From IMG/VR virus record IMGVR_UViG_3300035662_001474, positions 1-35,500 of that record: a stretch of DNA of 35,500 nt; one strand, 5' to 3'. A program made the translations under genes and the position numbers. The notes under the pieces were generated by a model. The model searched no databases and was not told the origin of the DNA. It worked only from the letters and a program-made list of their open reading frames with translations. The stretch is from a virus. How positions within the stretch are numbered: position 1 is the first letter of the stretch; every line of letters begins with the position of its first letter. Shown here one piece after another: positions 8,038 through 35,500 of this stretch.

Positions 8038-8980
8038 AATTGCTCATATTGGAACCGATCCAGAATTTGTAGTATTAGATGCTGAAGGTAATTTAGCCTC
8101 ATCTATAGATTTCTTACCTGGTACTAAAGAAACCCCATTTGATTTGGGTAATGGTACTTACGTACAAGTTGATAACGTTATGGCTGAATTTTGTGTTCCT
8201 CCTACAAATTCGCCTAAAGAATTATGGGATGCTTTACAGTATGCTAAACAAGCAGCCCTACAATTTTTACCAGCAGGATATTCATTTGCTACTATAGCAA
8301 GTGCTGTATATCCTGATAAACTACTAGATAACCCAATTGCTCAGGTTTTTGGTTGTGAACCAGATTTTACACCATATTATCCTAAGGGTACATTAAAAAA
8401 TAATGTTTCAAATAGAATTACTGATCTTTTTAGTGGTAGTATGAGAGTTAACCCAAAACCAAATTGTGCAGATAAAAATTTAAGATCTTGTGGTGGTCAT
8501 ATCCATTTAGATTACTTTGATTCTATTTGTATTATTAAAGATCCTACTACTTTACAAAGACTTACTTCTATTATAATCTTGTTATGTGATTTGTATTTAG
8601 GTATCCCTTCTGTATTAGAAGACCCTGATACTAACAGAAGATTATTATATGGTAAACCAGGATCTCACCGTCCTAAAAGTTATGGTTTAGAATATAGAGT
8701 CCTTTCTAATTATTGGTTAGAGTCTTTAGATATGATTACTGCTATCTTTGAGAGGATTAAGCTAATAGAAAAAGCATTAAATTCAAGAATAACTAGTATA
8801 TCTGGAGGTACAATTTATGGATATAATGAGTTAAATAGTCATATTAATAGTATATTAAATAAATTTAACATCAATACTATTGAAGATCTTGACGATATTA
8901 TTATTAATAACAACACTAAGGTTGCTGGAGAAATCTGTAGCTTCTTAGAAATCAAACCGTTAATTAAAGAAAAAGTATAA
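8030..8980 (+). CDS. phiEco32-like COOH-NH2 ligase type 2 (glutamine-synthetase-like fold)
   Basis: This 316-residue member of the phiEco32-like carboxylate-amine ligase type 2 group uses ATP to form an amide on a glutamine-synthetase-like fold. Diagnostic pieces are: HIGTDPEFVVLD at the N-terminus (about residues 6-17; acidic metal ligands); VDNVMAEFCVPP (about 49-60); QVFGCEPDFTPY (about 105-116); LRSCGGHIHLDYF (about 151-163), the GGHIH active-site strand; and YGLEYRVLSNYW (about 221-232), matching the E-x-R end of the family. All key positions look intact. The 3' 66 residues are Asn/Ile-rich helices. It overlaps the ATP-grasp gene by 8 nt and precedes a GATase, so ammonia from glutamine may feed it. 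Confidence 0.84.
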   Translation: MIKIAHIGTDPEFVVLDAEGNLASSIDFLPGTKETPFDLGNGTYVQVDNVMAEFCVPPTNSPKELWDALQYAKQAALQFLPAGYSFATIASAVYPDKLLDNPIAQVFGCEPDFTPYYPKGTLKNNVSNRITDLFSGSMRVNPKPNCADKNLRSCGGHIHLDYFDSICIIKDPTTLQRLTSIIILLCDLYLGIPSVLEDPDTNRRLLYGKPGSHRPKSYGLEYRVLSNYWLESLDMITAIFERIKLIEKALNSRITSISGGTIYGYNELNSHINSILNKFNINTIEDLDDIIINNNTKVAGEICSFLEIKPLIKEKV

Positions 8981-8992
8981 TCAAAAAAAGAT

Positions 8993-10636: not shown

Positions 10637-10641
10637 AAAAT

Positions 10642-19379: not shown

Positions 19380-19421
19380 AAAAAAGGGGAGGTAGATTAA
19401 TTCTACTTCCCCTATTTTTTT
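19380..19421. terminator. Bidirectional terminator between convergent genes
   Basis: AGGGGAGGTAGA (19385-19396) pairs with TCTACTTCCCCT (19402-19413) with a single G-T wobble and a 5-nt loop. It is followed on the + strand by a T run (19415-19421) and preceded by an A run (19380-19385) that gives a U-tract on the - strand. It lies between the 407-aa gene and the stop of the giant gene, so it can end transcription from both sides. Confidence 0.9.
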
Positions 19422-19435
19422 GTAAGCTGTTATTA

Positions 19436-22400
19436 TTAATAATTATTATACCAAGGATCTTTAATTAACTGGTTATAAGCAACAGAGAAAGGCATTAAAG
19501 TTGTAGCACCTTTCATACCCACTAAGTCCCCATCTCTATTAGTATTTCCTTCTAATAAACCACTAAAGAATAATTTATCAACACCTTCACCAGTCTCTAA
19601 TAAAGCTGGTAATATTACAGTTGGTTTATTAACTAAGTTCAACATCTCTAAGATATTAAATTCAATAGTTAAGTCTCTTAACAAGTCTATACTTCTACGT
19701 TTAAGAACATCTTTGTCGTCATCATCAGCATCACCATAAGCATATATAATACCCATAGTACCAGCTACCCAAACAAATAAGTTTAAATACTGATTTAAAA
19801 CTAATTGTTTTTGTTCTGGTGATAATGTAGACCATACAGTAACAGCCTCTTTAGAATCGTTTAGCATAGCTTTATTTAAGTAAAGTCCTCTCATCATCAT
19901 CTTATAACCTCTTAAGATAACATCATTATAAGCAACACTAGCAGCTAACAAGGACATACCTTTATCTAATTGAGCTTCCCATCTTAATACTGGATTACCA
20001 TCAACTTCTATAGGCTTACCACTGTCATGATCTAATACTTCTATATACTTACCAAGTGAGGCATTTTCAAACTCTCCTTGGAAAGCCATCTCAAACTTAT
20101 TAGGTATAAACTTCTTAAACTGTAAGAACATAGCTGTGAAGGCATTAGATTCCATCTTACGTTTCATTTCAGGATCATATTCACCTACAATTCTAGCCAT
20201 AATCTTCTTGAATTTTAAAAGCTCTTGAGCTGTCATTCCACTAATAACTTCACCGTTTTCAGTTACACCTCTAGTACCACCTTCCCAAACCAACTGACCA
20301 TCTTTTACATTGTAAGCATCCCACATATTGGTTTCACCATTAGCAGTTTTAATTTTCTTATTCTTTAATATACTAATAAAGATTAATGAGTTAGCTAAAG
20401 AATCACCTAAACCATAAGTCATATAAAGCCATCTATCATCAACAGCTTTATTTCTAGCCATAGTTAACATTTGTTTACTATTAGCACTAATGAACTGCTG
20501 TTGCTTTATATTATATATATCATCAAATAAGGTAAGCTTATCAACTTTACCTGTAAGTTTATTATATAAGTGTTGGAAGTATATACCATAAGCTTGGGTA
20601 AGTGTAGATAAAGACCAGTTGATGTCATCCTCTTCTATACCATCTATACGTTTAGCTAAACTACCTTTAACAGCATCTTTAACAGTATTTAACTGGTTTA
20701 ATACTAAGTTAACAGTAGCACCTAATGTAGAGAATGAGAGCTTAGCCATTGTAGCTAATCCCATAAGGCTTCTTAATGCCCTTTCTCCAGATACTTCTAT
20801 ACCTAATACTTTCTTACGTTTATGTATGTTTGAAGCTAAGTTATTTTCTTCTTCATTATAAACTTCATGTAAGTTATTATCAATATAAGATCTTAAGAAA
20901 TTAGCAGAGTTTTTCATAGCACCTATCTTAGAACCACCTGATTCAAATATAGTAGCTAAACTTAAACCATAAGCAGATACATTATCATAGAATCTTTTAT
21001 TTATCATGTTCTTAGCAAACAGTTTCATGATTAATTCTGTATGCATAGTTTGATTAGGACTATGTGCATTATAGTTATTAATATACTTTAATGGTACACC
21101 AGCTCTACGTAAACCAAAGGTATCAGCAGGCTTAGCACTGTAAGCTGTTACTTTATGTAAAGCCCAGTTTCCTAAAGTATTAATAATCTCCTTAGTTTCA
21201 GTAATACTATACTCTCCTGTAAGCTTAGGTAATCTTGGTGTGAAGTCTTCAGTGTAAACAAAATACTTACCAAGCTCAGCTTCCCACTTCTCAACAGGTT
21301 CCATATCTAAATACATATCTATTTTAGCTTGGTACTTAGCAGCAAGTTCTTGTTTAGTGAATAGTCCTATCAATAAGTCTGAATCAACATTATCTAACTT
21401 ATTCTTATAATACTTTAAACCTCTAGTAGTTGATAATGTGGAGAATAACATATCTCTAATACTATCTCTATAGAATACATTATACTTCTTCTGAGCAGTA
21501 GATAATAAAGCCCAATCAGTACTAGTTTCAGTTTTAATAGTCATACCATCCCCTTCAGATGTATCCCACATAAATTTAAATGCTTTCTCATAGTTAAGCA
21601 TATTTAAACCTATCTTACCACCAATCATAGATAAGAAGTTATTACCATAGTATTCTTTTAATACATCTTTAAGTAAAGAGTCAGACTCTCTAAATAACTT
21701 ACTTCTAGTTTCTGATATAAGTTGTAATGCCCTAGTCCGAAGCTTCATGAAAGTCTTCAAGAGCGGATTCTTAACATTAAATCCTACTGAAGTATAGGTT
21801 TCTTTTATATCTATATCAGAATTAACATCTGTCATAGATCCAAATTCAGCACCTTCTAATTCAGATATCTGTAATATTAATGACTCTAACTGCTTTTTAA
21901 CTAGTGGGTTAGAATTAATATAAGCATCAGTTAATGGTTGCTTATCCTTACCTCCAGATCTTTGTAGAGTATCTAATTGCTCATATAATCTTTGTAATAC
22001 AATTTCTTTAGCTGCGAATACTGAAGCTGCTCCTTTCTTTAACTCTTCATTAATACGATCAGATACATTAGTAGATATAGCTACATATTCCTTATGATTT
22101 AACAGATAACTATTAGTCTTAATAAAGTCATTAGGATTATGTGTAAAGTAACTAGCTAAGTTTAATAATACAGAGGACCTATCAACTTCTAATAAAGCTG
22201 GTGTAGTAGTATGTTTATTTAAATTAACTAATGTTATATTTCTAAATCTAGCATTAGGATATAATGATTTAACAAGTAAAGCATAAGTACCTAACTGCAT
22301 TTGATAGTTATTAGTAGAATTAAATAACATACCAGTACGCTCAGCATACTTCATTTCACCGAAATCTTCATTAGGGTTAAATGATTTACCTGTCTTAAAG

Positions 22401-25400
22401 TCAATAATTGAGAAGGTACCATCAGCATGCTCTATTAACATATCTATTGTTCCACCCAAGTTTAACTGTTCATTGTATACTAAGAACTCAGAATGTATCT
22501 TATCAGTAGGTTGTATATTCAACCTTTCCATAAGGGCAGTTAAATAAGTATCATTACCCTCAATCCAATTGAAGTCAGAATCTTTACCACCTAAAGTTAT
22601 ATATTGTTGTAGTAAATCAGCTTTCTCTTGACCAAACTTTTGAAACTGTGGATCACTATTACCTACAGTATACATCTGTATAATCTTATGTATAATTTTA
22701 CCAGTTATTCTACTACGCTCACCAATCTTAGTAAAGTAGTCTAATAACTCTTCATAAGTAACTAGTGTACCAGTCCCATCTGGATGTTGTACAGGCCTAC
22801 CTAATAAGGTATTTACCTTACCATAGTACTTCTTAGCCATTACCTCAGCTTGAGTTAACTTCCTATTGTAACTTAAAAAGTTACCTAAGAAAGTACTCAC
22901 ACGATCTAATACTACAGATCTACCAGTAGAAGATACTACAGTATATCCTGTATCTCCTTCAATACCAGTCTGTTTAGTAATAGTGTAGTTATTATTTAAG
23001 TACCTTAACTCAGATGTCCCTTGAACATTACTAATGGTATCCGAGAACTCAGGACCATTTAACATCAGTTCAGCTAATTTAGAGATACTTGTTTGAGGAT
23101 CTAACTCAGTAATATTGGTAGGTTTATATAATCCTATTACACGCATTATAGCTTGATATACGCGCTTTACAGCACTTATAAGGGTATTAGTCCAACCAGA
23201 GGTTAATCCTACGCCATATCGTCCTATAGCGGTTACTATAGCCTCGTCTATCTGATCTTCTAATGAGAGGTCAGGATAGCTAAGTTTAATCTCAGCTAAG
23301 ATAGGACTATCCAGTATATTACGTTTTAAGTTATCATATAGAAGCTTGTTCTTAGACTTAATCATTATTAATAGTCCGTGACCAAACTCGTGTATAGGAG
23401 TTTCTAAACTATACTTATTAGAGTTTATGTATACCTTACCATTATGGAAGAATCCATATATATCAGGATTTAAACCTAACGACTTAACTAACTCACTATT
23501 AGTAAAGTCTAATACCTCATACTCAAACTTCAGTTTAGAAGCTAATTTACTAAGAAGTTTATTAACTACTCTAGAACCAACTACCTTATTACTATCTTTA
23601 ACATTTCTTTGTTCTGAAGCTTTCTGTTTAGTTAAATTAACTTCTACAGAACCATATACTTTAAAGTTATTGTTTACAGTATTCTCACCAGAACCAGTAG
23701 ATATAATTTGTTCTGAAGCATCACTAGTTTTTACACTATTAACCTGATAAGGTATCAACACTTCATTATGAATATCAAGCATTGACTTCACTTGAATAAC
23801 ATCACCTACTGCAGGTAACTTCTCATCAGTAACAAACTTTAAAGTAGTTTCTATAGTATCATTATTGAAGTCTAATGGTGTAACACTAAACACATTACCT
23901 TTATTAGAGAAAGCTTCTTTTAAACTATAAGCTTTACCAGCTAATAAGTCTGGTCTAGCTGAATAGAACTTATATAGTTGGTTATCTTTAAGATTAGCTA
24001 CCTTGACATAGTAAGCTGTTTTAGCAGTCTCATCCATATCAACACGATACAATAAAGATGCTGGGTAGTTAGAAAACTTAAAGAACAATGGTGGTGTAGA
24101 GCTTTTAACTTTCATCTCCTCACCAGTTTCTTTATTTACAACTGTTTCACGATCATCTCCAAAATATACTATAGCATCAATATTCTTTCTTTCTCTTCCA
24201 CCTAGTAAGCCATTAAACTTAGCATTGTTTCTAGTATAGATATGACCACTATTCTTAAATACTGCAGAAGCAGATCTAACATAATCTTGGTTTCTAAGTA
24301 GAAATGGTAGTATAAAGTGATCGCTTAGGTTATTAAAAGCCTCATCATTAAACATCGCAGTATTGAATTGATTGTATACTGCATTAGCCTTACCTAACAA
24401 AGATGGAAGTATTAATGTAGAGAATCCTCTAAAACCAAACTCCAATCCTGTAGACAATGTTGAAAACTTAAGTAAAGCTAATTGAAACTCTTCAGGTAAC
24501 TCCATGAAAGATACTTGTATAGTAGCAATACGACCAGGTTCTTGTTGAACTGATCCTAATACCCAATAGATACGAATCTCACCATTAGCACCTTTATAAG
24601 TACCTATGTTATTTATCTTAGGTTCTAAGAGCTTCAAGAATTCATTATCAGGATACTTAGCTTTATACTCTTTTAAAGTCTCAGCAAAGTTTTGTATCCA
24701 AGCATCAACTCCATATAAGTAAAAAGATCTATCAGGATTAACTTTATTAGTTATCTTTACAGGCTCTTTCCATTTTAAATCTTGCTCATCATAACTAGTT
24801 AAAGATGATAATGAGTACAATTCAAATTCTCTAGATACATGTATAAGATCTTCATTAGAAGTTCTATTACTGTTTAAGTACTTGTTAACAAATCCAGCTA
24901 ATCTTTCTTTCCAAGCTTTACTACGCTGTGGTAATACTTGTTCTCTAACTTCTAAAGTCTCTTCAAAGATTTGTTTAGACTCTTTAATGTGGGTAATATC
25001 AAATATAGAACCACCTTCAATACCACTATCTTTAGATATTGTTTCTAAGTTATCTTGTACCTTAGCAATTTCTTCCTCTGTAACAGGGAAATCTCTAATG
25101 ATATTAGTAGCATCAGCTGTCTTACTAATCTTCTGAGCTATTGGGAATAGTTTAGTATAAGCTATTAAAACTTTATATTGTGTTATAATAGCTTCTTTAG
25201 GTAACCCTTCCCAGCTTACCATAGAGTCATAACCTACTAATGCTAATACATCTTGTAATTCTTTAGATGTGATAGTATCATCTTTGATTGTTTTAGTATC
25301 AACTCCTAAACCCTGTAACTTAGCTTCAATACTCTTTTTAATATTTTGAAGCTCACCTAATGTATAATTAACATCAAAGGTTCCTAATCTAGCAGTATCT

Positions 25401-28400
25401 TTCATAATAACTGGTTGTCTTAGGAAAGATACAATGTCTGTCATTGGTATACCTAATGATACCATCGTAGCTAATGTAGCTCCAGTATTATTAGTAGCAT
25501 TAAGTATAGCTAATACTTGTTCTTTAACGTTATCAATAGCACCGTTAATCAATGTATCTAATAACTCCCAGATCTTACGTCCATTAGGTCTATCTTCTCT
25601 CTCAGCAATACTACCATATACTTTATCATTAAATGATATATCTAATGGTTTAGCATTCTCTGAATTCTTATTATATACAAACTTAGCACCAACTGGTGTT
25701 GAGAAGTATATGTAAGATAAAGCTTTTACGAAGTTAGCGAAAGCACCAGTTAATGATACTCCAGAGAAGTTATCTAAATAATATTGTAAGTTATCATTCA
25801 TATCATTTAGATCTTTGAGTACATCAAAGTCTATCTTATTATTAATAACTTTCAATAACATTTTAACTGATATATCTTTATCAGCTAATATAGTATTACG
25901 TAACTCATCAGATAGATTTAATCTATTATTATCTACATCTAATTGTATATTATCTGCAGTAACACCCCACTCTTTAAACTTACTAATAACTCTTTCAGTT
26001 GATGTTCCCTTTTCTAACTCTACTAAAAACTCAGGAGTTAACTTACCATCATCACCGAAAATATCTATTGGAGATGTTGGGTGATATAAAGTTTCATTAG
26101 GATCGAAGAAGTCTTCTTTAACAGCATTAAAGGTAATAGGCTGCATCATGTCATACCTATTCTGTTTACGCAGTAATATCCAAGATATTAAGAAGTTACG
26201 TTTGTTCTGTAATGTTTTTACATAAGCACTTTCAGCTAATTTTAAATGAGATTTAAGTTCTTTTAACGCCTCAGCATCTTCATTATCAGAAATGTTACGG
26301 TTAATAGAATCTATTAAAGATTTAATAAGACCTATCTGACGATCAAACTCAACAGAATTAAAAGTACTTTCTGTAGCTTTTTGAGAAGCCATCATCATAC
26401 TAAAGCTATCAAAGTTTATGTCAGCATCCCAACCAAGTCTTTGTCCTTCTTTAATTATAACGTTACCATTCAGATCTTTTAACTCAATCATTTTCCTAAC
26501 ACCAGTCTTCTTCAAACTTGATTTAGGATCAACTAATACCTCAACGTGAATAGCAAACAATGAATCGACGTCGAAGTCAGATCCGTGTAAAGCTACAAGT
26601 TCCATTGGGGCTACTAAGATGTTACTCTTACTGTCAGTAAATCCTACAATTTTAAATGGTACTGCAGAGTGAATACCAGTAGTAGGGATACGTACACCAA
26701 AAGCAAACCTAGTTAAGAAGTCATCTACTAGAACAATATCACCAGTATCAACTTCACTACCCTTAGCTTTCATATATTGTTTCCACCAAGCAGGCGCTAT
26801 AACTTCAGCTATACGACCATCCATAGTAGAGTTATCTGATACCATATTTAATCTAGTAGGAATTAACATCCTATCTGTATTAAGAGTATCAATAAGTTCT
26901 TTCTCACTATCAGATAATGCGGTATACTCCATAGTCATATCTTTATGACTTTCCCAGTGAGTATATGAGTTATTATTTAAGTAATAAGAATTTACTTTTA
27001 ACTTTAAAACTTCCTTAACATGATAGGGTAATAATTTAAAAGCATCAAAAGATTTCTTCTCACTTTCTGTTAAATCATTAAATAACTTAACCTGACCACC
27101 AATTCTAAATACTGAAACTCCACGATCAGCTTGTAATACTAATTTATTACCACTACCTACAATAGACTTTACAGAGTTATTAGCAGCACCACTCATTAAG
27201 CTTATCTCAACCCTATTACGTAATGCTGGGAAGTTTAAGCTAATCAAGTAATTACCTCTGCCATCTTTAGCACGAATAAACTCCTCAAACCTTTCATAAC
27301 CAGCCATACCTGATACAGCTTCAGCTAATACATTTCTAACTTTATCTTCGTTAATCTCAAACTTATTACCTACATACTTACCTAACTTTCTTAAGTAAGC
27401 ATTAAAGTTAGTACGCATTATCAAGGCATCAATATCATATACCATCTTAGTAGCTTCAGTATTTAACTTATTAACGTTTAAGAAATAAGTTAACTGACTA
27501 AAGTTAGTTACATCACCCTCAGAACTTGCTGGGTTAGATTGTATACTATAATATTTAGAAGGTACATTTATAATACCATTACCATTTTGTCTAGTAGTTG
27601 TAGCTATGTGATCTGATATAGACTCGCCATTCTTTAATAAACGAGCAGGAGCTCCTACTTTGAATGCTGAACTATGATGAAACTCCATAATGTTATTGTC
27701 TTCCATATCTTTACGGAGATCAGCTAACTCAGGAAACCTAGCACATAAACTATCTGATAACTCAATACCAGAGTTTTTACTAAATCTAGTAACACCATAC
27801 TTATCAATAAAGTACAGTACAGGTTTTAAAACTCCCTTAATACCATACTCATATCCATATCCTTTCTCAAGCTCCTCTTTCCACTTAGGTAAGTAGTACA
27901 TCTGAGCATCAGTCTTATCTATCTGTAAGCCATATAAACCATTATAAGCTTTAGCTACATCTGTATAAATATTAAATACAGCATGCTGATCTGATGCTAC
28001 AATGATATTAAAGTTATCAACCATACCATTACCAGATTTAGAAGTATCTACCTTTGGTGAATCACCAGGAGATATTCCTCCACTAGCTCTCTTAACTTGT
28101 GTAGTAGGATTAGCATACAAAGATCTATCAGACATTTGAAACTGATTCAAGAAGTGACCATTAACATAGTTCTGTTTAAATGCCTCAGCTATAATGATAT
28201 ATAAATTCAAATTATATTCTCTATCAATTTCAGGAGAGTATTTAGAACTAGCATTATACTTATAGTTCTTATTGAATATCTTAGTTAGACTATCAATCTT
28301 AGCATCATCTAATAAACCTACTCTTTCTAAGTAACTTATAAAGCTCTTAGCCTCGTAAGGTTCAATATAATTCTTATCACCAAGACCACGCTTTAACTTA

Positions 28401-31400
28401 GCTACTAAAGCATTATTGTTTACAATACGCTCATAAAATTTATAAGCTCTAGTATCAAGATCATCAATTACTTTATCAACTACTCTTTCTAAAGACTCCT
28501 GATCTAGTACTTTATTATCAGCTAAGTAAGTAAATCCACCCTTTAACTTACCAGTCCACACATACTTATATGTACCATTTTCAAGTACTTGTACTTTCAA
28601 AGGTATACCTTTTATAAATATGTTATGATCTTTAGCTAAGGTTTCATACCATCTATATCTTTCAACCTGTTGTAATATGGCACTCTTTATATCTTCCCTC
28701 ATAGTTTTAATATTACTAGCAGGAATTCTAAATGACATATTCTGAGGTTTGTTAGATGGTGTATATGGTGATTGTATATATGTTGGGTTCTTATCAGACT
28801 TTAACATAGTACTGTAGAAACCAAACACTAATGTTCTAACTACCCAACCACTAATACCCTCATTCTTGTAAGGTGTAGCAGTATCAGCATCTTCAAACAT
28901 AACGTTATTCTTATAACGTTGTTTTAAAGCTTCTTGTGTAATCAGTTCTCTAATGACTCTACCTTTAGATCTAAGGAAAGGATTGTATTTATAATACAAC
29001 TTATATCCAATAGATTCAGGATCAATATGATCTGGTCTTTTAAATCCAGTCTCACCAGTCTCATCAAGATTCCTTCTGAACTTCTCAAACATTCTAGTTA
29101 AGAAACTACCCTTAACAAATTTATAACTACTTCTGTTCTTAGAATCTAAATATCTACTGTTCTCACCAAAGCCTTGAGAGATAGCTAAAGTATCCATAAT
29201 CTCTTTAATACGATTATTGTTATCGTTAGCTAATGCATCCTCAATAGCTTCTAAAGATTCTTTCTTATCTACAAAGCCTATTATATTATTTAATATACCA
29301 TTTAAAGCATTAATAATTATCTCATTCTGTATAGGAGTTAAGTTAAAGATTTTAAACTTACCTAATCCTAACATATTAAATACTTTAGAAACAGTTTCTC
29401 TATTAGTACTAATCTTATTAGCCTTTACATCAGTAGACTTGTTTACAAGTTCTAATAAGCTTTGGGCTTGTCTAATTATAGCTCCTTGGGGATCATCTCT
29501 CAATACAGATAGAATACCATCCTCAATAGATAATTTAACAGCTTGTTCACCACCTAATACAGAATTAGGAATATATCTAGTCTTTAATGTAACTATAGGC
29601 TTTTCTCTAGAGTTAGGATCTTCTGCTTCTTCTAATATAACATCTGTCAATCCCATGTATGGGTGACGTTCTACTAACGAGGATATCCCAGCTTGTATAC
29701 CAGCACTTAAGTTTCTAGCTTCTTCTCTAGCTAATAATGTAGCATACATATTAGCCAACTGTTGTTCAGTAAATTTATTAGAAGGAACTAACTGTCCTTG
29801 TATATCAAATAACAATGGCTCATCTAAAGCTAATGTCATAGCTACTAATCTCTTAATATAATTATTAGCATTAGCATCCTTAACACCATTAGCATCCCTA
29901 CGAGTAAACTTATAGTCTACACCTTTGATAGTACCAACAACTAAGTTATTGTTATAATATAAACCACCATCTTTAAAACCACGTTGAGTTATTTTAAGGT
30001 TACTTGGTAAGAAGGCTTTTTTGTATCTTAATCTTGATACACCATTCTTTACCTCAGTAGTAACCTCACTAGTATATTTATCATTCTCAGCTCTTCTAAT
30101 TATATCAACTAAGAAGTCATACACTCTACCTACTTTAGGATCTCCAGAGTCATCTTTCCAACCAAGCTTAGTAGCATTCAAAGACATAGCTTGAATAGCA
30201 TTCATATCAAAGTTTTCAATACCTTTAAGGAGTTTTAAACTTATATAGAATACTGTTCTTCTAGGAATATATTCTTTTAAAAGTACATTACCTTCAGCAT
30301 CATATTGTTTAATAAACAATGCCGACATTAAGTTTTTAACAGAAGCAAGTAACTGTGACTCGTAATTTATACGCCAAGACTCTTCGATCTCATCCTTTAA
30401 AGAAGGATCATCACCAAATGTCTCGTCAGAATTATCTAAGTTAATACTATCAGTACTTTGTACTAAGTAATCATATACATTATTGTATATCATATTAGCA
30501 CGTTTAACTTCCTTCTCAGTTATACCGCCAACCAATATCTTTAACCATATTGGAGCTTTATCTTTTAAGTTATTAAACTGATCTTTCAAATCCGCATATA
30601 CAGCAAACTTAGCATCCTCTGGAGTCATAGTAGCTCCATTGTAATATACCTTACCATTAGCCCCAGTTCTAATAGACATTGCTATACCATTAGACTGATC
30701 GTTCCTAGGAGAGTCTGGGGATATTTTACTAGCTAATGATTTTAATATAGCTACTTGAGCTAAGTTATAATTATCAGCTGAATCCTTGTACTGTCTTTCT
30801 GGAGTACCAAACCAAGCATGTATAAGTAATTTATTTAAACCAGTACCTTCAACAGCTTCATTAGCAGTCTCATAAGTAAAGTTACCTTTCTGTATACGAT
30901 CAAAGAAACTTTCAATCTTATCTTGAGCAGATAATTGAATATTAAATATACTCTTTATCTTCCTGAAGAAACTATGTAATAGCCTACTAACAAAGTTTGG
31001 CTGTCTTAGGTAAGACATAAAGGAGTCTGCTAACCACTCTTCAATATCACGGTTAGTCTTATCCTTTAATAATGGGTTAGCTTGTATAGCTAACTTATAT
31101 ATCTCTTTACGTTGCTCAGCATTAAAGTAAGCATGTGTTACTCTATGGAAAGCCTCGTGTCTCAATACATCTATTGAAGCTTCACCTTGAGCATTAGTCA
31201 TTAAGTAAATAACTCCCTTCTCATATCTACCCCACACATCCTTACCAAAGCGTCTAATCATTTCAGCTTTAGATAAGAATAATAATTTATCAGGATCTGA
31301 AGCAAAGTCCTTACCAAATATTTCTGATGCTGCTTGTCTAACTAAACTAGGTGTAACCCAATTAGTAGGAGTTGTAGTATCACGTACTGTCCAATCAAAA

Positions 31401-34400
31401 CTATCAGTATCATCATCCCAGCTTAAATCAATATCATTACCATCAGCAGCGAAATCATTAGCAGGTCTAGGATCTTGTGGTACATGAGCTACATCATTAG
31501 GGATAGATTGTTCTAAAGCAGCTAGTTCTGCATCATAGTTAACAAGAATATTTCCTTTAGAGTCCGTAGTAACAGTATAATCTTTACTTAAAGTTTTATA
31601 TATATTAGGTACCATTACACCTTTTCTCATTTCTGAAAAAGAGTATAAACCTTTTACGCCAGAAGGTAAATTTTCTAATATATACTTATATGAATTAGTA
31701 GCTATTTTTTTATTTTGATATTCCTTTTTAGTACTTACTTCATAAACGTTAATATATTTTTTACCATCTATGTCTATTATATTTCCTTGAAACTTGAATA
31801 TCGGAACATTTGAGAAAGTACTTTTTTTATCATATACTTTTAATGTATACTCATCATTTTCAAGAGTAACTTCTGTTGTATAATCATTTTTATTAAAAAA
31901 TGAAGATATTTCTTGTCTTCTTTTTTCTATATCAGCTTTAGCATCTGTAGAAACACCACCTTCTAAAGCAGCTAATTCTGCATCATATTTAGCATTAATT
32001 TCTAAATATTTTCTTTTTGCTTCAATATTTTCTTCTCTACTATCTACATAACCTTTATTAGCTTCTGGATTTGAATACAAACCTTTTTTTCTCCCTTCAA
32101 TAGTTATATCAGCAATATCAATCCAGTTTTGTAAAGCTTTATCATATCTTGCTGCTACATCAGGTCTATACTTTATTTCATAATCATATCCCCTCACTTC
32201 TTTAATTAACTCCTCTTGTCTTCTTCTTTCTATATCAGCTTTTTTAGATTCTATAGGTTGAGTTTCTTTAATTGGTGGCTTAACATTGTTAATAGTAATA
32301 CTAGTAGGTTCAATACCCATTAATGAAGTTTCAAAATCATCTATCAGATCATCTTGAATTCTTTGTTTATATCCTTGTTCAGTTTCAGTAGGAAACCTAT
32401 TTACAGTTTTAGTATGCATTGGTAATCTTAAACCAAAGCCACTATTAACCATACTATCACCATTATTATCAAAAGCATTATCTCCCACTAAAGCATCTAA
32501 TACTTCTTCAGTGATAGGATCTAATTCCTCAACTACAGTTACTGCAGATGGTTCGCCTTTAGTAGGTCTATGGCTGTGTATGTAATGAGCCTTAGTGCCA
32601 TTACCAGGGTTATATAATAAGTTTAATCCTGAGAAATACTTATGACCAGTAGCTACACCATCTTTATATTCTTGTTTAGTCTGTCTTAAGTATATTCTTT
32701 TATCACCAATGAACACAGATGAGTTAGCCCTAGCTATAGAATCAAATGCTTTAGCTGCAGGACCATGATTACCACGCTCATTAATTAAACCATCAATAAC
32801 TAACTCTTCAACATATTGTGAAGGATCAATATCCATATTATGGATAATACCAGATTCAACTTTAGTACCACCATCTAGTATACGTTTGTAATTACGTTTA
32901 CCACCATTCTGATCTATAAACTCTTGTGAGTGTATTTCATATACAGGCATACGCTCTTTACCAGTAGCAAGATCTTTATCTACAGGTATATCAATCTTAA
33001 TATGTAAGCCTTTAAAGTTATAAACTTTACGCCAAACCTTTAATCCTTTATTACCCTTCTCTATTAAATAGAATCCTTTTAATGTAGGGTGTGCTGTATA
33101 ACTATTCTCACCAAGTTTTACTGGACCTTCAACTGCTCTTCTAGAACCTTTGTCTCCAGTAATAAAATACTTAGACATGAAATCCTCATCAGTACCCTCA
33201 TCATTTATAACAGCATTGTTAGGATCATAACCATACTCGTGTAAAGCTAATGGGTTAAATAATCCAGTACGAATACTCTTAATAAGATTATTATAGGTAG
33301 CTATATCAACACCTTTACGTGTAAGCTCTTCTATTACCTTCTTAGAAATCTCAGACTTAGGATTAAGTAACTTAGAGAATATCTCTGCTTGAGTTCTACC
33401 AATAGTCTTACCAGTTGACTTATTAACATAGTCATAACCAGGTACAACCTTTAGTCCACCCCAACGTATCTTAGTATCACCATCTAATACAGATAGTATC
33501 TTATGAATATCTTTTATGTTATTTAAGAAGCCACGTAACTCATTAACAGAAGAATCTAAATTTAAGTTTAATCTTCTAGTAGTTAATGGTACATACAATA
33601 CTTCTTCTTTACCACTCTTATGAGTAATTTTAATTACTTGGTAAGGTACACCAGGTCTAACTACACGAGGATTTAATCCTTGTTTAATTATCTCAGCATT
33701 ATTATATATCTTTAATTCCCAATTGTATTTATCGTCAATAGGATTAAATGATTCTAAGTTACCACTATCACTATAGTATGTACTCATAATCTTTACATAC
33801 ATAGTATCTAAGAACTCTCTAAAGTCTTTTAAAGGACCCCACTTAAAGAACTTAGGTGTAGCATTACCAATTTGTCCTACAAGCAATGGAGGATTCTTAT
33901 CACCCAGATCTGTAGTTAATTTTCCTTCCTTACCCTTGAATTCAGACCACTCAATATCATCAGCATCCCTAGTTTGAAACTCAGGGCTAGTAATAGCATC
34001 TACAACTTCCTTAGGTAATTTATACTTACCTATTTCATTTATATCATCCTTACCTATTACACCAATCAGATACCATGAACCATCAGCTCCCTGAGCAATG
34101 ATAGCTAGACCAGCTCTGTTGTTAGCCTTATCCCAGTACTTTACATATTGTACTTGAGAGCCTGTTGTAATCTTTTTATCCTTATCTTTAATAGAGAAGT
34201 ATTGTGGATACTTCAAGTTATGAGTATTAATTATAACTTGTGGTTCCTGCGTATTTTCTATAGGAAAATCTTCAGGCTTATTTAATTCTTCCCTAGCTAA
34301 ATCAACAGTATCATTATCCTGATCCATATCATCATCAGCTACAATACCCTCATTATCAGGATCTGCAGGCTTAGGATTAGTTGGATTAGCAGAATTAGTT

Positions 34401-35500
34401 TGTGCTGGATCATTAGCAGCTGGTTTAACTACAGCAGCTTTTAAATTAGCATTTAGATTACTGTTAGATATATTATCATATTGTTTTTGTAGCTCACCAA
34501 CAAAGTTACTAATCTCATCCTTAGTAGGTGCCTTACGTTGTTCAGCAGCTATTAAAGTTTTATTATCATTAGTAAACTTAGTTGTAGGTGAATGTATAAC
34601 TACTAAGTTCTTAGCTCTAGATGTAGCTACATACATAGCTTTGTTAAACATAGCTACGGTACCATCATGTCTAGGAGCTAACTTACCAGTAGGTGTTAGC
34701 ATAACATATACTTCATCTACAGTATGGCTTTGAGCTTCATGTATCTCAAGCACATCAACATTAGTTACACCCAAGTCAGCTAACTCTTTAGTTACTTCTT
34801 GTACTTCTTTAGCTGAGTTAACAATAACTAATTGATGTCTACCTTTACCACGATTAGCGATAAGCATATTGTATAAGTCAACTTTACTATTAACTCCAAA
34901 GCTACCATTAGCTTTATCTGAAGTTAATGCAGTAGTTACCTTATCAACAACACTTACCTTATTACGGTATTCTTTCTGTGTTCTAATTATATCAATATCA
35001 TCAGTACGATATGTAATCGTTAATGGTGACATAAACTCTTTAGAAGGATATTCACCAATAGGTTGTGCGATAAATGGTGGTATAGTTAAAGTAGATAACT
35101 GTGTTGGATCGCCCATCATTACAACCTTTACTGCTGGGTTTATTGCTTGAGCTTCAAGTATCTTTCTATTAATCTTGTCTAATTGTTCATCAGATAACAA
35201 CCCAGCCTCATCAATTATAATGATAGGTGAGTCAGCTAGTACTTGTGAATCCGTATTTAAGAATGTCTCAAGCGGATTAGCATCATTAGGGTCTGATTTA
35301 CCTAAAGCTATTGCTAAGTTCTTATTAGAAGATTTAGTTGGAGCTAATGATACTATCTTAGTACTATCAATATTTAATAGTTTAAGTAATAACTTAGTAA
35401 CAACTTGTGTCTTACCGCTACCAGCATAACCAAGTACAACACTTACAGGACCAGTTAATACATCACCTTTATACCAATTAACTAACTCTCGTGATGTTAC
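19436..35500 (-). CDS. Giant multidomain polyvalent protein with virion-type RNA polymerase core (at least 5,354 aa, open at right edge)
   Basis: One uninterrupted frame runs from the window edge (codon at 35500) to TAA at 19436-19438. No start is visible; codons upstream of 35200 encode a clear helicase P-loop, so the protein begins outside the window. Domains, N to C: SF1 helicase; Pro/Asp-rich linkers; two repeat-bracketed cassettes; zincin (HEAFH); a polymerase core with an invariant-looking Lys (27659-27661) and DFDVD (26564-26578); a second zincin (HEFGH); a RecB/Cas4-type nuclease; and about 1,000 C-terminal residues ending with a hydrophobic segment and DPWYNNY. crAss-like phages are known to carry DFDxD polymerases in the virion, eject them with the DNA and use them for early transcription. 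I infer the same here. Autocleavage by the zincins is plausible. A chain this long in phage is exceptional. Confidence 0.85.
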   Translation of the reverse strand, partial: VTSRELVNWYKGDVLTGPVSVVLGYAGSGKTQVVTKLLLKLLNIDSTKIVSLAPTKSSNKNLAIALGKSDPNDANPLETFLNTDSQVLADSPIIIIDEAGLLSDEQLDKINRKILEAQAINPAVKVVMMGDPTQLSTLTIPPFIAQPIGEYPSKEFMSPLTITYRTDDIDIIRTQKEYRNKVSVVDKVTTALTSDKANGSFGVNSKVDLYNMLIANRGKGRHQLVIVNSAKEVQEVTKELADLGVTNVDVLEIHEAQSHTVDEVYVMLTPTGKLAPRHDGTVAMFNKAMYVATSRAKNLVVIHSPTTKFTNDNKTLIAAEQRKAPTKDEISNFVGELQKQYDNISNSNLNANLKAAVVKPAANDPAQTNSANPTNPKPADPDNEGIVADDDMDQDNDTVDLAREELNKPEDFPIENTQEPQVIINTHNLKYPQYFSIKDKDKKITTGSQVQYVKYWDKANNRAGLAIIAQGADGSWYLIGVIGKDDINEIGKYKLPKEVVDAITSPEFQTRDADDIEWSEFKGKEGKLTTDLGDKNPPLLVGQIGNATPKFFKWGPLKDFREFLDTMYVKIMSTYYSDSGNLESFNPIDDKYNWELKIYNNAEIIKQGLNPRVVRPGVPYQVIKITHKSGKEEVLYVPLTTRRLNLNLDSSVNELRGFLNNIKDIHKILSVLDGDTKIRWGGLKVVPGYDYVNKSTGKTIGRTQAEIFSKLLNPKSEISKKVIEELTRKGVDIATYNNLIKSIRTGLFNPLALHEYGYDPNNAVINDEGTDEDFMSKYFITGDKGSRRAVEGPVKLGENSYTAHPTLKGFYLIEKGNKGLKVWRKVYNFKGLHIKIDIPVDKDLATGKERMPVYEIHSQEFIDQNGGKRNYKRILDGGTKVESGIIHNMDIDPSQYVEELVIDGLINERGNHGPAAKAFDSIARANSSVFIGDKRIYLRQTKQEYKDGVATGHKYFSGLNLLYNPGNGTKAHYIHSHRPTKGEPSAVTVVEELDPITEEVLDALVGDNAFDNNGDSMVNSGFGLRLPMHTKTVNRFPTETEQGYKQRIQDDLIDDFETSLMGIEPTSITINNVKPPIKETQPIESKKADIERRRQEELIKEVRGYDYEIKYRPDVAARYDKALQNWIDIADITIEGRKKGLYSNPEANKGYVDSREENIEAKRKYLEINAKYDAELAALEGGVSTDAKADIEKRRQEISSFFNKNDYTTEVTLENDEYTLKVYDKKSTFSNVPIFKFQGNIIDIDGKKYINVYEVSTKKEYQNKKIATNSYKYILENLPSGVKGLYSFSEMRKGVMVPNIYKTLSKDYTVTTDSKGNILVNYDAELAALEQSIPNDVAHVPQDPRPANDFAADGNDIDLSWDDDTDSFDWTVRDTTTPTNWVTPSLVRQAASEIFGKDFASDPDKLLFLSKAEMIRRFGKDVWGRYEKGVIYLMTNAQGEASIDVLRHEAFHRVTHAYFNAEQRKEIYKLAIQANPLLKDKTNRDIEEWLADSFMSYLRQPNFVSRLLHSFFRKIKSIFNIQLSAQDKIESFFDRIQKGNFTYETANEAVEGTGLNKLLIHAWFGTPERQYKDSADNYNLAQVAILKSLASKISPDSPRNDQSNGIAMSIRTGANGKVYYNGATMTPEDAKFAVYADLKDQFNNLKDKAPIWLKILVGGITEKEVKRANMIYNNVYDYLVQSTDSINLDNSDETFGDDPSLKDEIEESWRINYESQLLASVKNLMSALFIKQYDAEGNVLLKEYIPRRTVFYISLKLLKGIENFDMNAIQAMSLNATKLGWKDDSGDPKVGRVYDFLVDIIRRAENDKYTSEVTTEVKNGVSRLRYKKAFLPSNLKITQRGFKDGGLYYNNNLVVGTIKGVDYKFTRRDANGVKDANANNYIKRLVAMTLALDEPLLFDIQGQLVPSNKFTEQQLANMYATLLAREEARNLSAGIQAGISSLVERHPYMGLTDVILEEAEDPNSREKPIVTLKTRYIPNSVLGGEQAVKLSIEDGILSVLRDDPQGAIIRQAQSLLELVNKSTDVKANKISTNRETVSKVFNMLGLGKFKIFNLTPIQNEIIINALNGILNNIIGFVDKKESLEAIEDALANDNNNRIKEIMDTLAISQGFGENSRYLDSKNRSSYKFVKGSFLTRMFEKFRRNLDETGETGFKRPDHIDPESIGYKLYYKYNPFLRSKGRVIRELITQEALKQRYKNNVMFEDADTATPYKNEGISGWVVRTLVFGFYSTMLKSDKNPTYIQSPYTPSNKPQNMSFRIPASNIKTMREDIKSAILQQVERYRWYETLAKDHNIFIKGIPLKVQVLENGTYKYVWTGKLKGGFTYLADNKVLDQESLERVVDKVIDDLDTRAYKFYERIVNNNALVAKLKRGLGDKNYIEPYEAKSFISYLERVGLLDDAKIDSLTKIFNKNYKYNASSKYSPEIDREYNLNLYIIIAEAFKQNYVNGHFLNQFQMSDRSLYANPTTQVKRASGGISPGDSPKVDTSKSGNGMVDNFNIIVASDQHAVFNIYTDVAKAYNGLYGLQIDKTDAQMYYLPKWKEELEKGYGYEYGIKGVLKPVLYFIDKYGVTRFSKNSGIELSDSLCARFPELADLRKDMEDNNIMEFHHSSAFKVGAPARLLKNGESISDHIATTTRQNGNGIINVPSKYYSIQSNPASSEGDVTNFSQLTYFLNVNKLNTEATKMVYDIDALIMRTNFNAYLRKLGKYVGNKFEINEDKVRNVLAEAVSGMAGYERFEEFIRAKDGRGNYLISLNFPALRNRVEISLMSGAANNSVKSIVGSGNKLVLQADRGVSVFRIGGQVKLFNDLTESEKKSFDAFKLLPYHVKEVLKLKVNSYYLNNNSYTHWESHKDMTMEYTALSDSEKELIDTLNTDRMLIPTRLNMVSDNSTMDGRIAEVIAPAWWKQYMKAKGSEVDTGDIVLVDDFLTRFAFGVRIPTTGIHSAVPFKIVGFTDSKSNILVAPMELVALHGSDFDVDSLFAIHVEVLVDPKSSLKKTGVRKMIELKDLNGNVIIKEGQRLGWDADINFDSFSMMMASQKATESTFNSVEFDRQIGLIKSLIDSINRNISDNEDAEALKELKSHLKLAESAYVKTLQNKRNFLISWILLRKQNRYDMMQPITFNAVKEDFFDPNETLYHPTSPIDIFGDDGKLTPEFLVELEKGTSTERVISKFKEWGVTADNIQLDVDNNRLNLSDELRNTILADKDISVKMLLKVINNKIDFDVLKDLNDMNDNLQYYLDNFSGVSLTGAFANFVKALSYIYFSTPVGAKFVYNKNSENAKPLDISFNDKVYGSIAEREDRPNGRKIWELLDTLINGAIDNVKEQVLAILNATNNTGATLATMVSLGIPMTDIVSFLRQPVIMKDTARLGTFDVNYTLGELQNIKKSIEAKLQGLGVDTKTIKDDTITSKELQDVLALVGYDSMVSWEGLPKEAIITQYKVLIAYTKLFPIAQKISKTADATNIIRDFPVTEEEIAKVQDNLETISKDSGIEGGSIFDITHIKESKQIFEETLEVREQVLPQRSKAWKERLAGFVNKYLNSNRTSNEDLIHVSREFELYSLSSLTSYDEQDLKWKEPVKITNKVNPDRSFYLYGVDAWIQNFAETLKEYKAKYPDNEFLKLLEPKINNIGTYKGANGEIRIYWVLGSVQQEPGRIATIQVSFMELPEEFQLALLKFSTLSTGLEFGFRGFSTLILPSLLGKANAVYNQFNTAMFNDEAFNNLSDHFILPFLLRNQDYVRSASAVFKNSGHIYTRNNAKFNGLLGGRERKNIDAIVYFGDDRETVVNKETGEEMKVKSSTPPLFFKFSNYPASLLYRVDMDETAKTAYYVKVANLKDNQLYKFYSARPDLLAGKAYSLKEAFSNKGNVFSVTPLDFNNDTIETTLKFVTDEKLPAVGDVIQVKSMLDIHNEVLIPYQVNSVKTSDASEQIISTGSGENTVNNNFKVYGSVEVNLTKQKASEQRNVKDSNKVVGSRVVNKLLSKLASKLKFEYEVLDFTNSELVKSLGLNPDIYGFFHNGKVYINSNKYSLETPIHEFGHGLLIMIKSKNKLLYDNLKRNILDSPILAEIKLSYPDLSLEDQIDEAIVTAIGRYGVGLTSGWTNTLISAVKRVYQAIMRVIGLYKPTNITELDPQTSISKLAELMLNGPEFSDTISNVQGTSELRYLNNNYTITKQTGIEGDTGYTVVSSTGRSVVLDRVSTFLGNFLSYNRKLTQAEVMAKKYYGKVNTLLGRPVQHPDGTGTLVTYEELLDYFTKIGERSRITGKIIHKIIQMYTVGNSDPQFQKFGQEKADLLQQYITLGGKDSDFNWIEGNDTYLTALMERLNIQPTDKIHSEFLVYNEQLNLGGTIDMLIEHADGTFSIIDFKTGKSFNPNEDFGEMKYAERTGMLFNSTNNYQMQLGTYALLVKSLYPNARFRNITLVNLNKHTTTPALLEVDRSSVLLNLASYFTHNPNDFIKTNSYLLNHKEYVAISTNVSDRINEELKKGAASVFAAKEIVLQRLYEQLDTLQRSGGKDKQPLTDAYINSNPLVKKQLESLILQISELEGAEFGSMTDVNSDIDIKETYTSVGFNVKNPLLKTFMKLRTRALQLISETRSKLFRESDSLLKDVLKEYYGNNFLSMIGGKIGLNMLNYEKAFKFMWDTSEGDGMTIKTETSTDWALLSTAQKKYNVFYRDSIRDMLFSTLSTTRGLKYYKNKLDNVDSDLLIGLFTKQELAAKYQAKIDMYLDMEPVEKWEAELGKYFVYTEDFTPRLPKLTGEYSITETKEIINTLGNWALHKVTAYSAKPADTFGLRRAGVPLKYINNYNAHSPNQTMHTELIMKLFAKNMINKRFYDNVSAYGLSLATIFESGGSKIGAMKNSANFLRSYIDNNLHEVYNEEENNLASNIHKRKKVLGIEVSGERALRSLMGLATMAKLSFSTLGATVNLVLNQLNTVKDAVKGSLAKRIDGIEEDDINWSLSTLTQAYGIYFQHLYNKLTGKVDKLTLFDDIYNIKQQQFISANSKQMLTMARNKAVDDRWLYMTYGLGDSLANSLIFISILKNKKIKTANGETNMWDAYNVKDGQLVWEGGTRGVTENGEVISGMTAQELLKFKKIMARIVGEYDPEMKRKMESNAFTAMFLQFKKFIPNKFEMAFQGEFENASLGKYIEVLDHDSGKPIEVDGNPVLRWEAQLDKGMSLLAASVAYNDVILRGYKMMMRGLYLNKAMLNDSKEAVTVWSTLSPEQKQLVLNQYLNLFVWVAGTMGIIYAYGDADDDDKDVLKRRSIDLLRDLTIEFNILEMLNLVNKPTVILPALLETGEGVDKLFFSGLLEGNTNRDGDLVGMKGATTLMPFSVAYNQLIKDPWYNNY
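19736..19789 (-). other. Hydrophobic, possibly membrane-inserting segment near the C-terminus
   Basis: NLFVWVAGTMGIIYAYG is an uncharged 17-residue stretch followed at once by DADDDDKDVLKRR. It could span a membrane, which would suit an injected virion protein, or be a buried helix. Confidence 0.45.
22215..22875 (-). other. Domain: RecB/Cas4-type PD-(D/E)XK nuclease
   Basis: The order is that of the RecB family: GKIIHKIIQMY with an early His (about 22680-22700), GGTIDMLIEH with the catalytic Asp (22443-22445), IIDFKTGKSF with Asp (22400-22402) and Lys (22394-22396), and finally YQMQLGTYALLVK, the Q-x-x-x-Y helix. All residues needed for cutting are present. Target DNA unknown; attack on host DNA or trimming of ends after injection are possibilities. 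Confidence 0.8.
23215..23535 (-). other. Domain: zincin-like metallopeptidase 2 (HEFGH)
   Basis: GKVYINSNKYSLETPIHEFGH has the edge strand followed by HExxH, coded at 23378-23392. DQIDEAIVTAIGRYG downstream offers a third ligand (Glu). It is separated from the first zincin by the whole polymerase core, so the two peptidase modules bracket the polymerase. Confidence 0.7.
26120..28035 (-). other. Domain: double-psi-beta-barrel DNA-directed RNA polymerase core
   Basis: The first barrel region contains DKTDAQMYYLP and later FHHSSAFKVGAP, whose lysine (27659-27661) fits the conserved active-site Lys. The second barrel reads RIPTTGIHSAVPFKIVGF, then LVALHGSDFDVDSLFAIHV. This parallels the bacterial beta' sequence around NADFDGD, including the upstream R-x-P-T and the following hydrophobic strand. 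The metal-binding aspartates are coded at 26564-26578, 361 residues after the Lys. A downstream helix, NKRNFLISWILLRKQNRYDM, could match the bridge-helix region. This is the single-chain crAss-like/YonO class of polymerase. Confidence 0.83.
30855..31375 (-). other. Domain: zincin-like metallopeptidase 1 (HEAFH)
   Basis: VLRHEAFHRVTHAY supplies HExxH (coded at 31145-31159). EEWLADSF about 35 residues later gives a third, glutamate ligand (near 31026-31043). The flanking strand GVIYLMTNAQ is typical of the edge strand before the zincin helix. Zincin domains beside the polymerase have been noted in crAss-like giants. Likely role: processing of the giant protein or of virion or host proteins. Confidence 0.72.
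31511..31939 (-). repeat. Bracketed cassette 2: KADIEKRRQE ... YDAELAALE with GNAT-like payload
   Basis: The opening bracket KADIEKRRQE is coded at 31910-31939 and the closing bracket YDAELAALE at 31511-31537. The enclosed 125 residues read like an acetyltransferase-type alpha/beta unit: strand YINVYEVSTK, helix start EYQNKKIATNSYKYILENL, then GVKGLYS and VPNIYKTLSKDY. The usual Q/R-x-x-G-x-G/A acetyl-CoA loop is replaced by YQNKKIA, so a GNAT call is tentative and activity doubtful. The DNA looks richer in A/T homopolymers than its flanks. Confidence 0.65.
31961..32242 (-). repeat. Bracketed cassette 1: KADIERRRQE ... YDAELAALE
   Basis: A 10-residue opening bracket (KADIERRRQE, coded at 32213-32242) and a 9-residue closing bracket (YDAELAALE, 31961-31987) enclose about 75 residues of charged, Tyr-rich sequence of unknown function. 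The same two brackets recur immediately downstream around unrelated content (31511-31939). Confidence 0.75.
34240..34470 (-). other. Disordered acidic/proline-rich interdomain linker
   Basis: Directly after the helicase the protein becomes low-complexity: many Asn, Pro, Ala and then Asp (for example NPTNPKPADPDNEG, then DDDMDQDNDT). This is a probable flexible hinge and an obvious place for proteolytic separation of the helicase from the downstream parts. Confidence 0.7.
34580..35500 (-). other. Domain: SF1 (RecD/Dda-like) helicase at the N-terminal side of the giant protein
   Basis: Walker A LGYAGSGKT is coded at 35408-35431 and onward. Walker B IIIIDEAGLLSDEQ has its Asp-Glu at 35207-35212. 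Motif III is VVMMGDPTQLSTL (about 35080-35125), motif IV-like TYRTDD follows, and motif VI is AMYVATSRAKNLVVIHS (about 34590-34640). The set is complete and in order, so an active 5'-3' DNA helicase or translocase is likely. Dda-type helicases are usual in crAss-like genomes as separate genes; here the module heads the polymerase giant. Confidence 0.85.

Follow-up and report, generated by a model that had tools for sequence, protein, structure and literature searches.

The stretch of DNA studied here, called the window throughout, is the whole of the 35,500-base IMG/VR virus record IMGVR_UViG_3300035662_001474, and it carries on its minus strand a giant gene that runs off the end of the record. 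A preliminary description, made from the letters alone, had reported a continuous stop-free frame of 16,065 nt uniting a superfamily 1 (SF1) helicase, two HExxH sites, an RNA polymerase (RNAP) and a RecB-type nuclease in one protein. The frame was recovered on the minus strand, with its stop codon at 19436-19438 and its 5' end open. Two further IMG/VR contigs from the same phage (G001 and G002) continue it upstream to an ATG 1,196 codons before the window end, which overlaps the stop of a 190-residue gene. The complete protein has 6,550 residues (740 kDa); positions in it are written f1-f6550, f being the window residue plus 1196, and its first 1,196 residues are encoded beyond the window, on G002 and G001. 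The features of the gene are as follows.

19436..35500, minus strand: giant open frame, of which the window holds 5,354 codons, for residues 1197-6550 of the complete chain
34592..35446, minus strand: SF1 (Dda/Pif1/RecD-like) helicase core, f1215-1499, assigned by Pfam, PHROGs and motifs
30809..31291, minus strand: putative zincin 1, f2600-2760, assigned by sequence profile, with HEAFH at 31145-31159
25052..28651, minus strand: region modelled as RNA polymerase, f3480-4679; predicted local distance difference test (pLDDT) 70.4, predicted template modelling score (pTM) 0.74
27209..28171, minus strand: first conserved RNAP block, resembling double-psi beta-barrel (DPBB) B, f3640-3960, assigned by profile
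26459..26791, minus strand: second conserved RNAP block, DPBB-A-like, f4100-4210, with the catalytic GSDFDVD
23069..23521, minus strand: predicted zincin 2, f5190-5340, with HEFGH at 23378-23392 and a downstream invariant Glu at f5282
22109..22771, minus strand: PD-(D/E)XK nuclease, Cas4/RecB/MGME1-like, f5440-5660
19649..21091, minus strand: conserved C-terminal domain, f6000-6480, common to crAss001 gp49 and phi14:2 gp076

At the base composition of the window random stop codons would occur at about 7.6%, which puts the chance of 5,354 stop-free codons at approximately 10^-184. Coding on the plus strand was rejected because the same frame there is full of stops, as was a start at the TTG at 35200, which is internal to a frame that both G001 and G002 continue upstream. 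Recoding was also rejected as the cause of the long frame, the related genes described below being open in translation table 11; TAG readthrough is needed in 13 of 79 other RNAP loci. Over an overlap of 8,755 nt, G002 differs from the window by eight mismatches that change six codons (two synonymous, four not). All four residue differences fall at 35440-35500, within the first 20 codons at the window end, which makes a contig-end error and a strain difference indistinguishable. The preliminary description had named stops or assembly joins in the raw reads among the findings that would undo its reading, and a frame of this kind could in principle arise where the stops between genes were lost or a contig was chimeric, the more so as residues 3023-3969 of the window are covered, among same-phage contigs, by the window contig alone (G001 and G002 end before this segment and L016 starts after it). 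The same colinear single open reading frame (ORF) is nevertheless found in five other contigs, each open across the whole gene, and the near-identical relatives G003 and G004 show three synonymous and no non-synonymous differences in 2,907 codons. An artefact is therefore extremely improbable.

The polymerase assignment rests on both motif and predicted fold. GSDFDVD lies at f4169-4175, its DFDVD at 26564-26578, and aligns with the corresponding motif in phages cr4_1, ctbg_1 and Dulem 41. Comparison of the model with the PDB gave a sole match at E <= 0.001, the virion RNAP of phage phi14:2 (6vr4_A; E 7.3e-20, TM score 0.52 by query). The double-psi-barrel polymerase with DFDVD put forward in the preliminary description, whose span of 26120-28035 takes in most of both conserved blocks, is thus upheld, and an N4-type (T7-like single-subunit) polymerase was rejected on the same motif and fold. 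A phmmer search against PDB sequences returned nothing below E 0.3, the middle tiles of the window protein gave no Pfam match over the cut-off and only PHROGs matches of E 0.02 or weaker, and f1-1196 gave no Pfam match above the cut-off. The window protein contains no hydrophobic segment over threshold.

The helicase core holds the motifs GYAGSGKT, IIDEA, GDPTQL, HEAQSHT and YVATSRAK (motifs I, II, III, V and VI), and matches Pfam AAA_30 (E 3.7e-13) and Viral_helicase1 (4.2e-12) as well as the Dda-like PHROGs family phrog_325 (7e-19). The nuclease has a PDDEXK_1 match in Pfam at E 2.9e-9, a structural match to 9iac at E 7.6e-5 and one to MGME1 with a Z score of 11.9 over 186 residues (root mean square deviation 4.4); its invariant H f5467, D f5549, D f5563 and K f5565 are kept in all 13 alignment rows. 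Structural comparison of a model of f5150-5720 (pLDDT 69.8) gave 606 chains with Z of 2 or more, and the nuclease groups with Cas4-like ACE1, MGME1, Dna2, Exo5 and RecE. Helicase and nuclease are the only parts of the window chain over the Pfam cut-off.

The two HExxH sites are at window residues 1448 and 4037. HExFH of putative zincin 1 is kept in eight giant proteins, those from which one of two profile sets was built; the other set was widened to their relatives. At zincin 2, the HExxH and the downstream Glu are conserved in 12 of the 12 alignment rows that hold the domain; row L020 begins after zincin 2, so that the motif match there is accidental, and its own zincin 2 ends the preceding ORF. 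Among the 50 matches listed for the f5150-5720 model, those within model residues 7-200 are the HExxH proteases IrrE/PprI and PPEP/Zmp1, and these matches agree with a zincin fold, although at Z 6.4-6.8 they lie below the caution level of 8. A zincin 2 match (E 1e-10) is also found in a 2,482-residue 'structural protein' of Tenacibaculum phage Gundel_1, of the Pachyviridae (L004 16056-23504).

Three of these regions have counterparts in known crassviral virion proteins (values are given for the giants' profile, then for the widened one). Putative zincin 1 matches crAss001 gp47 (E 1.5e-12 and 3e-27), whose HEAFH is at residue 2157 of 2341, and also cr4_1 gp26 and the 2474-residue protein of Dulem 41. 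The first RNAP block matches crAss001 gp50 (3e-10 and 1e-56) and phi14:2 gp077 (4e-17 and 1e-43), and the C-terminal domain matches crAss001 gp49 (1e-18 and 7e-101) and phi14:2 gp076 (1e-12 and 7e-56). By these profile matches the giant corresponds to gp47, gp50 and gp49 in one chain. Mass spectrometry has found gp45, gp46, gp47, gp49 and gp50 in crAss001 virions (PMC10172136), and phi14:2 gp076-gp082, which include the homologues gp076 and gp077, are annotated as structural by tandem mass spectrometry.

The remainder of the phage agrees with the crAss-like attribution made in the preliminary description. The terminase large subunit matches that of crAss001 at E 1e-91 and, by tblastn, 158 phage records, the best with 37% identity to cr1_1 over 99% of its length; the portal matches at 2e-114, with 33% identity over 94% to gut crAss phages, and the major capsid protein matches crAss001 gp32 at 4e-62. 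On G002, matches to the tail ring proteins gp43 (8e-11) and gp40 (1e-10) and to the muzzle protein gp44 (8e-21) were found, and the counterparts of crAss001 terminase, portal, capsid, gp33, gp34/35, gp40, gp43 and gp44 stand in the same order. Before the giant gene come a muzzle-like gene of 1,688 residues (phi14:2 gp082, E 2e-65; crAss001 gp44 as above) and then genes of 820, 762 and 190 residues, a layout that parallels crAss001, where gp47 comes after gp44-gp45-gp46. A megablast search against phages gave no match. Crassvirales are characterised by a circular genome near 100 kb and a Bacteroidota host; the window, G001 and G002 are genome fragments of 28-56 kb.

Hence the giant is probably the transcription cargo of a crassviral virion in a single chain, made up of the equivalents of gp47, gp50 and gp49 with a Dda-like SF1 helicase added. 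Several observations weigh against this. The models of the RNAP and nuclease regions, with pLDDT of 70.4 and 69.8, are of modest confidence. Although crAss001 gp49 matches the profile of zincin 2 (5e-5), it contains no HExxH, a nuclease-like stretch in gp47 lies upstream of zincin 1 and reaches E 2e-5 at best, and helicase, nuclease and zincin 2 are not in every crassviral cargo. In crAss001, gp49 and gp50 are on the strand opposite gp47. The 820- and 762-residue genes agree with gp45 and gp46 by position only, no sequence match having been found, and IHF, a hallmark gene of crAss phages, did not turn up next to the tail genes; the 169-residue gene in its expected place has no Pfam and no crAss001 match. 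Lastly, some relatives in the clade described below split the gene, so a single chain is not essential.

These relatives were collected by a scan with a four-row RNAP alignment, of which the best 80 of 92 confirmed loci were studied; one (L017) lies on the window phage's own contig G001, and an RNAP ORF is present in all 79 others. L097-L103 and L106-L108 show loci of this set at greater length and do not add to the totals. GSDFDxD is present in 75 of the 80 loci, and its invariance in a 44-row alignment is partly by construction, because of the scan pattern and the selection of rows with the motif. In a tree made by a quick method from 49 rows (the window, 43 of the 79 loci and five named phages), the window and 13 loci (L018-L030) form one clade with a Shimodaira-Hasegawa-like approximate likelihood ratio of 100, apart from crAss001, phi14:2, cr4_1, ctbg_1 and Dulem 41; long-branch warnings apply to the pairing of the window with L020 and of L023/L028 with the other side. 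The clade includes the near-copies L018/L019, L021/L022 and L023/L028.

Within this clade, complete single ORFs from ATG to stop encode 6,105 (G004), 6,148 (G006), 6,045 (G010), 6,166 (G011) and 6,679 residues (G012). The gene is split in G005 (4,955 residues and a second gene), in G009 (4,846 residues and a second gene), and into three in G008 and G013, while in G003, G007, G014 and G015 the contig stops within the gene. Identity of the 13 rows to the window protein is 22-29% in the RNAP tile and 17-23% in the tile of zincin 2 and nuclease; it drops further across the linkers and over most of the N-terminal part, yet the domain order is kept end to end. The first 3,000 residues of L025 gave nothing in Pfam at 0.01.

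The helicase follows this clade. At 9 of the 13 loci the RNAP ORF itself contains SF1, and at two (L023 and L028) the ORF directly upstream does; L018 and L022 begin downstream of it, so that it is truncated away. As the SF1 and zincin profiles were built from the eight giants, across which the helicase motifs are broadly conserved in alignment, matches on those eight are by construction, and Pfam AAA_30 (PF13604) serves as the independent test: it is over the cut-off in 10 of 13 clade records, missing G003, G007 and G010, in the last of which the motifs nonetheless align. Outside the clade, putative zincin 1 is within the RNAP ORF in 34 of 66 loci, the C-terminal domain in 11 and SF1 in two, namely L058/G043 (on the N-side) and L083/G068 (at the C-terminus, with UvrD_C_2); a partial PF13604 match below the cut-off in the RNAP ORF of G055/L070 (14 bits, profile 16-46) was excluded. 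These profile counts cover at most about 20 kb per locus, so that an ORF at a locus edge could hide a helicase; the PF13604 searches took whole records. At L057, L070, L087 and L089 the ORF with the zincin 1 match is on the strand opposite the RNAP gene, indicating an inversion of this portion of the cargo genes.

Seventeen of the 79 other RNAP records contain a Dda-like helicase as an ORF of its own, 486-509 residues long. An origin of the giants' helicase by capture of such a gene was rejected, since the 12 N-side helicases fall on one side of a branch with 100/100 support and the 17 free-standing ones away from it. The helicase tree is midpoint-rooted, and the long branches of the window, G005, G043, G068 and RB49 make fine placement unsafe. 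The fusions at L058 and L083 look like separate gains, as judged from the RNAP tree, where they sit away from the clade, and from the helicase tree, where they fall outside the branch of N-side helicases, subject to the long-branch warning. A tblastn search with the window helicase, of limited reach at such divergence, matched 58 of 50,697 phage records; the 40 listed are T4-like coliphages, in which the gene, where named, is called Dda-like, DNA helicase or exonuclease V.

Two distant relatives carry other modules. The 6,070-residue RNAP giant of G068 bears, beside its C-terminal SF1 helicase with UvrD_C_2, a DUF1848 match (7e-10; L108 16779-19115). In G051 (L066, or L109 and L110) a 7,427-residue RNAP ORF, of which 6,720 residues were scanned, combines matches to zincin 1, RNAP and zincin 2 with cpYpsA of the SLOG type (8e-35), an AAA_33/Zeta_toxin kinase-like module (5e-17 and 3e-5) and ART-PolyVal below the cut-off (6e-5). 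The product of cr4_1 gp27 (L005 27475-32886), annotated 'VOG1134; exonuclease', holds ART-PolyVal (5e-9), an HExxH, a weak PDDEXK match and the C-terminal domain.

The preliminary description had read the combination of domains in one chain as a self-contained injected takeover machine. The combination was observed, but it is less novel than it may seem, as fused crassviral giants are already known. In a review, RNAP genes 'up to ~6000 aa' long are mentioned for crassviruses (PMC10136315), and in Yutin et al. (PMC7886860) the transcription block consists of several large proteins with multiple domains, PDDEXK among them in some, while a figure legend names an SF1 helicase among the conserved genes; a giant as such is thus not new. 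The crassviral virion RNAP set (phi14:2 gp077, the source of 6vr4, and crAss001 gp47, gp49 and gp50) shares with the giant the RNAP fold, GSDFDxD, zincin 1, the C-terminal domain and a position after the muzzle and cargo genes. By contrast, the crAss001 set comprises three proteins, whereas the giant is one chain with an added SF1 helicase, a zincin 2 that keeps its HExxH, and a nuclease after it. Closer in form are cr4_1 gp26 (4,491 residues), which joins zincin 1 and RNAP, and the putative RNAP of ctbg_1 (4,407 residues), which joins RNAP and the C-terminus. In both phages the remaining parts are in another gene and the helicase profile finds no SF1 at the locus; Pfam, applied to cr4_1 gp26 and gp27, finds none either. 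In the openly accessible literature searched, no description of a crassviral RNAP protein that contains an SF1 helicase was recognised, which does not prove absence. The helicase is the part for which no precedent was found, and a deep RNAP clade, the window and 13 loci, with SF1 in the chain or in an adjoining ORF appears to be new.

Outside the crassviruses, the polyvalent proteins that Iyer et al. 2017 (PMC5512222) described from phages and plasmids are likewise very large and multidomain with interspersed zincins, and are thought to act right after entry. The giant has what defines them, several enzymatic domains with zincins between, zincin 1 being assigned by its sequence. Their set includes N4-like RNAPs and SF2 or UvrD helicases; in the available text of that paper a double-psi-barrel RNAP is not named and the string 'crass' is absent. 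The virion RNAP of N4 and DEV (about 3,500 residues; PMC12633501, PMC10925440) resembles the giant in being a single chain ejected into the cell, in N4 with an HExxH domain, and differs in its T7-like core (PMC5512222), in being about half the size, and in that no helicase is mentioned in the parts available. It is itself an ejection protein, in a system for which a genome-ejection motor has been proposed (PMC12633501, PMC10925440), and is the closest mechanistic parallel; with a helicase tethered to the polymerase, the giant could in addition open the duplex or pull on it. The RNAP of P23-45 (5,002 residues; PMC10770324) is also a giant virion protein with a polymerase homologous to cellular ones, and differs in being fused to the tape measure of a long-tailed Thermus phage.

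By homology with these cargo proteins, the giant would be ejected and start early transcription. In the mechanism proposed, a few copies of the 6,550-residue chain, with its helicase N-terminal of zincin 1, would be packed near the portal; for crAss001, six copies of each RNAP-associated protein have been given as an example of fit, and partial unfolding on exit has been inferred (PMC10172136). The chain would leave the tail before the DNA, partly unfolded, and refold in the host cytoplasm, where the double-psi-barrel polymerase would transcribe early genes. The tethered helicase could act on the incoming template by opening the duplex, clearing proteins or pulling DNA, the Cas4/RecB-like nuclease may trim or degrade DNA, and the zincins may have the chain itself or proteins of the host as substrates. 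Packaging, injection, each enzymatic activity and cooperation of helicase and polymerase are to be read in this conditional sense. A giant that is synthesised in the cell, is never injected and serves there as a factory for replication and transcription would fit helicase and nuclease as typical replication functions, and free-standing Dda-like helicases do occur in the 17 records noted above. However, the homologues of the giant are virion proteins and its gene sits in the tail and cargo block, away from the replication genes, which are on the other strand; such a factory is very improbable.

Whether the giant acts whole is a separate matter. It may be a self-processing polyprotein, the zincins cutting at the seams between the helicase part, the RNAP and the nuclease part, before or after injection, to release separate enzymes. 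Zincin-mediated autoprocessing of injected polyvalent proteins has been proposed (PMC5512222), the breaks in the split genes fall near zincins (ahead of each of the two in G008 and G013, ahead of zincin 2 in G009, just after it in G005), crAss001 gp47 ends 184 residues past the start of its HEAFH site, and an HExxH lies between RNAP and C-terminus in all eight clade ORFs that hold both. Yet these gene breaks are few and related by descent, and the N4 virion RNAP has a zincin and is packaged uncut (PMC5512222). Moreover, outside the clade all 11 ORFs joining RNAP and C-terminal domain lack an HExxH between them, which implies that fusion there needs no protease; 13 separate downstream ORFs with the C-terminal domain (L020 not counted) lack any HExxH, and in L082, L084, L092 and L095 the first HExxH of the downstream ORF is more than 700 residues from its start. 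Self-cleavage is plausible from the sequence, and the polyprotein is a possibility of some weight, if on the doubtful side. Alternatively, zincins and perhaps nuclease would be anti-host effectors on a delivery platform of the polyvalent-protein type, as the effector-like modules of cr4_1 gp27 (ART-PolyVal), G051 (cpYpsA and AAA_33/Zeta_toxin) and G068 (DUF1848 and C-terminal SF1) might suggest. The window chain itself has no Pfam match over the cut-off except helicase and nuclease, and this reading is rather unlikely.

For the single-chain cargo, these comparisons imply that the injected transcription machinery of crassviruses can be one continuous chain to which a motor enzyme has been added. 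The natural one-, two- and three-gene versions of the module set provide a ready comparison for how giant proteins and DNA are moved across two membranes, the helicase in the chain is a candidate, open to test, for what supplies force or opens the duplex, and the helicase-RNAP giant marks a branch distinct from the crAss phages that represent the order in the RNAP tree. It can be proposed, as a speculation that is itself somewhat unlikely, that an undescribed deep branch of Crassvirales fused an SF1 helicase to its virion RNAP so that one ejected molecule opens or hauls the genome and transcribes it, and that such fusions were gained at least three times in the order. Were this so, repeated gains would point to early crassviral transcription being limited by duplex opening or genome entry, and chains of 6.0-6.7 thousand residues, with the 7,427-residue relative, would rank with the largest proteins ever to pass through the tail of a phage.

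Other observations concern the surroundings of the gene. The sign of GC skew flips at 19400-19500 of the window, where plus-strand genes meet the minus-strand giant; such a flip has been described for crAss replichores (PMC10136315). At 7129-12363 four adjoining plus-strand genes encode S6 glutaminyl transferase-like, COOH.NH2 ligase, glutamine amidotransferase-like and amidoligase proteins, a group that looks like a peptide-ligation or tagging set. At L011 9317-12284 there are two near tail-fibre-like genes with collagen-like matches.

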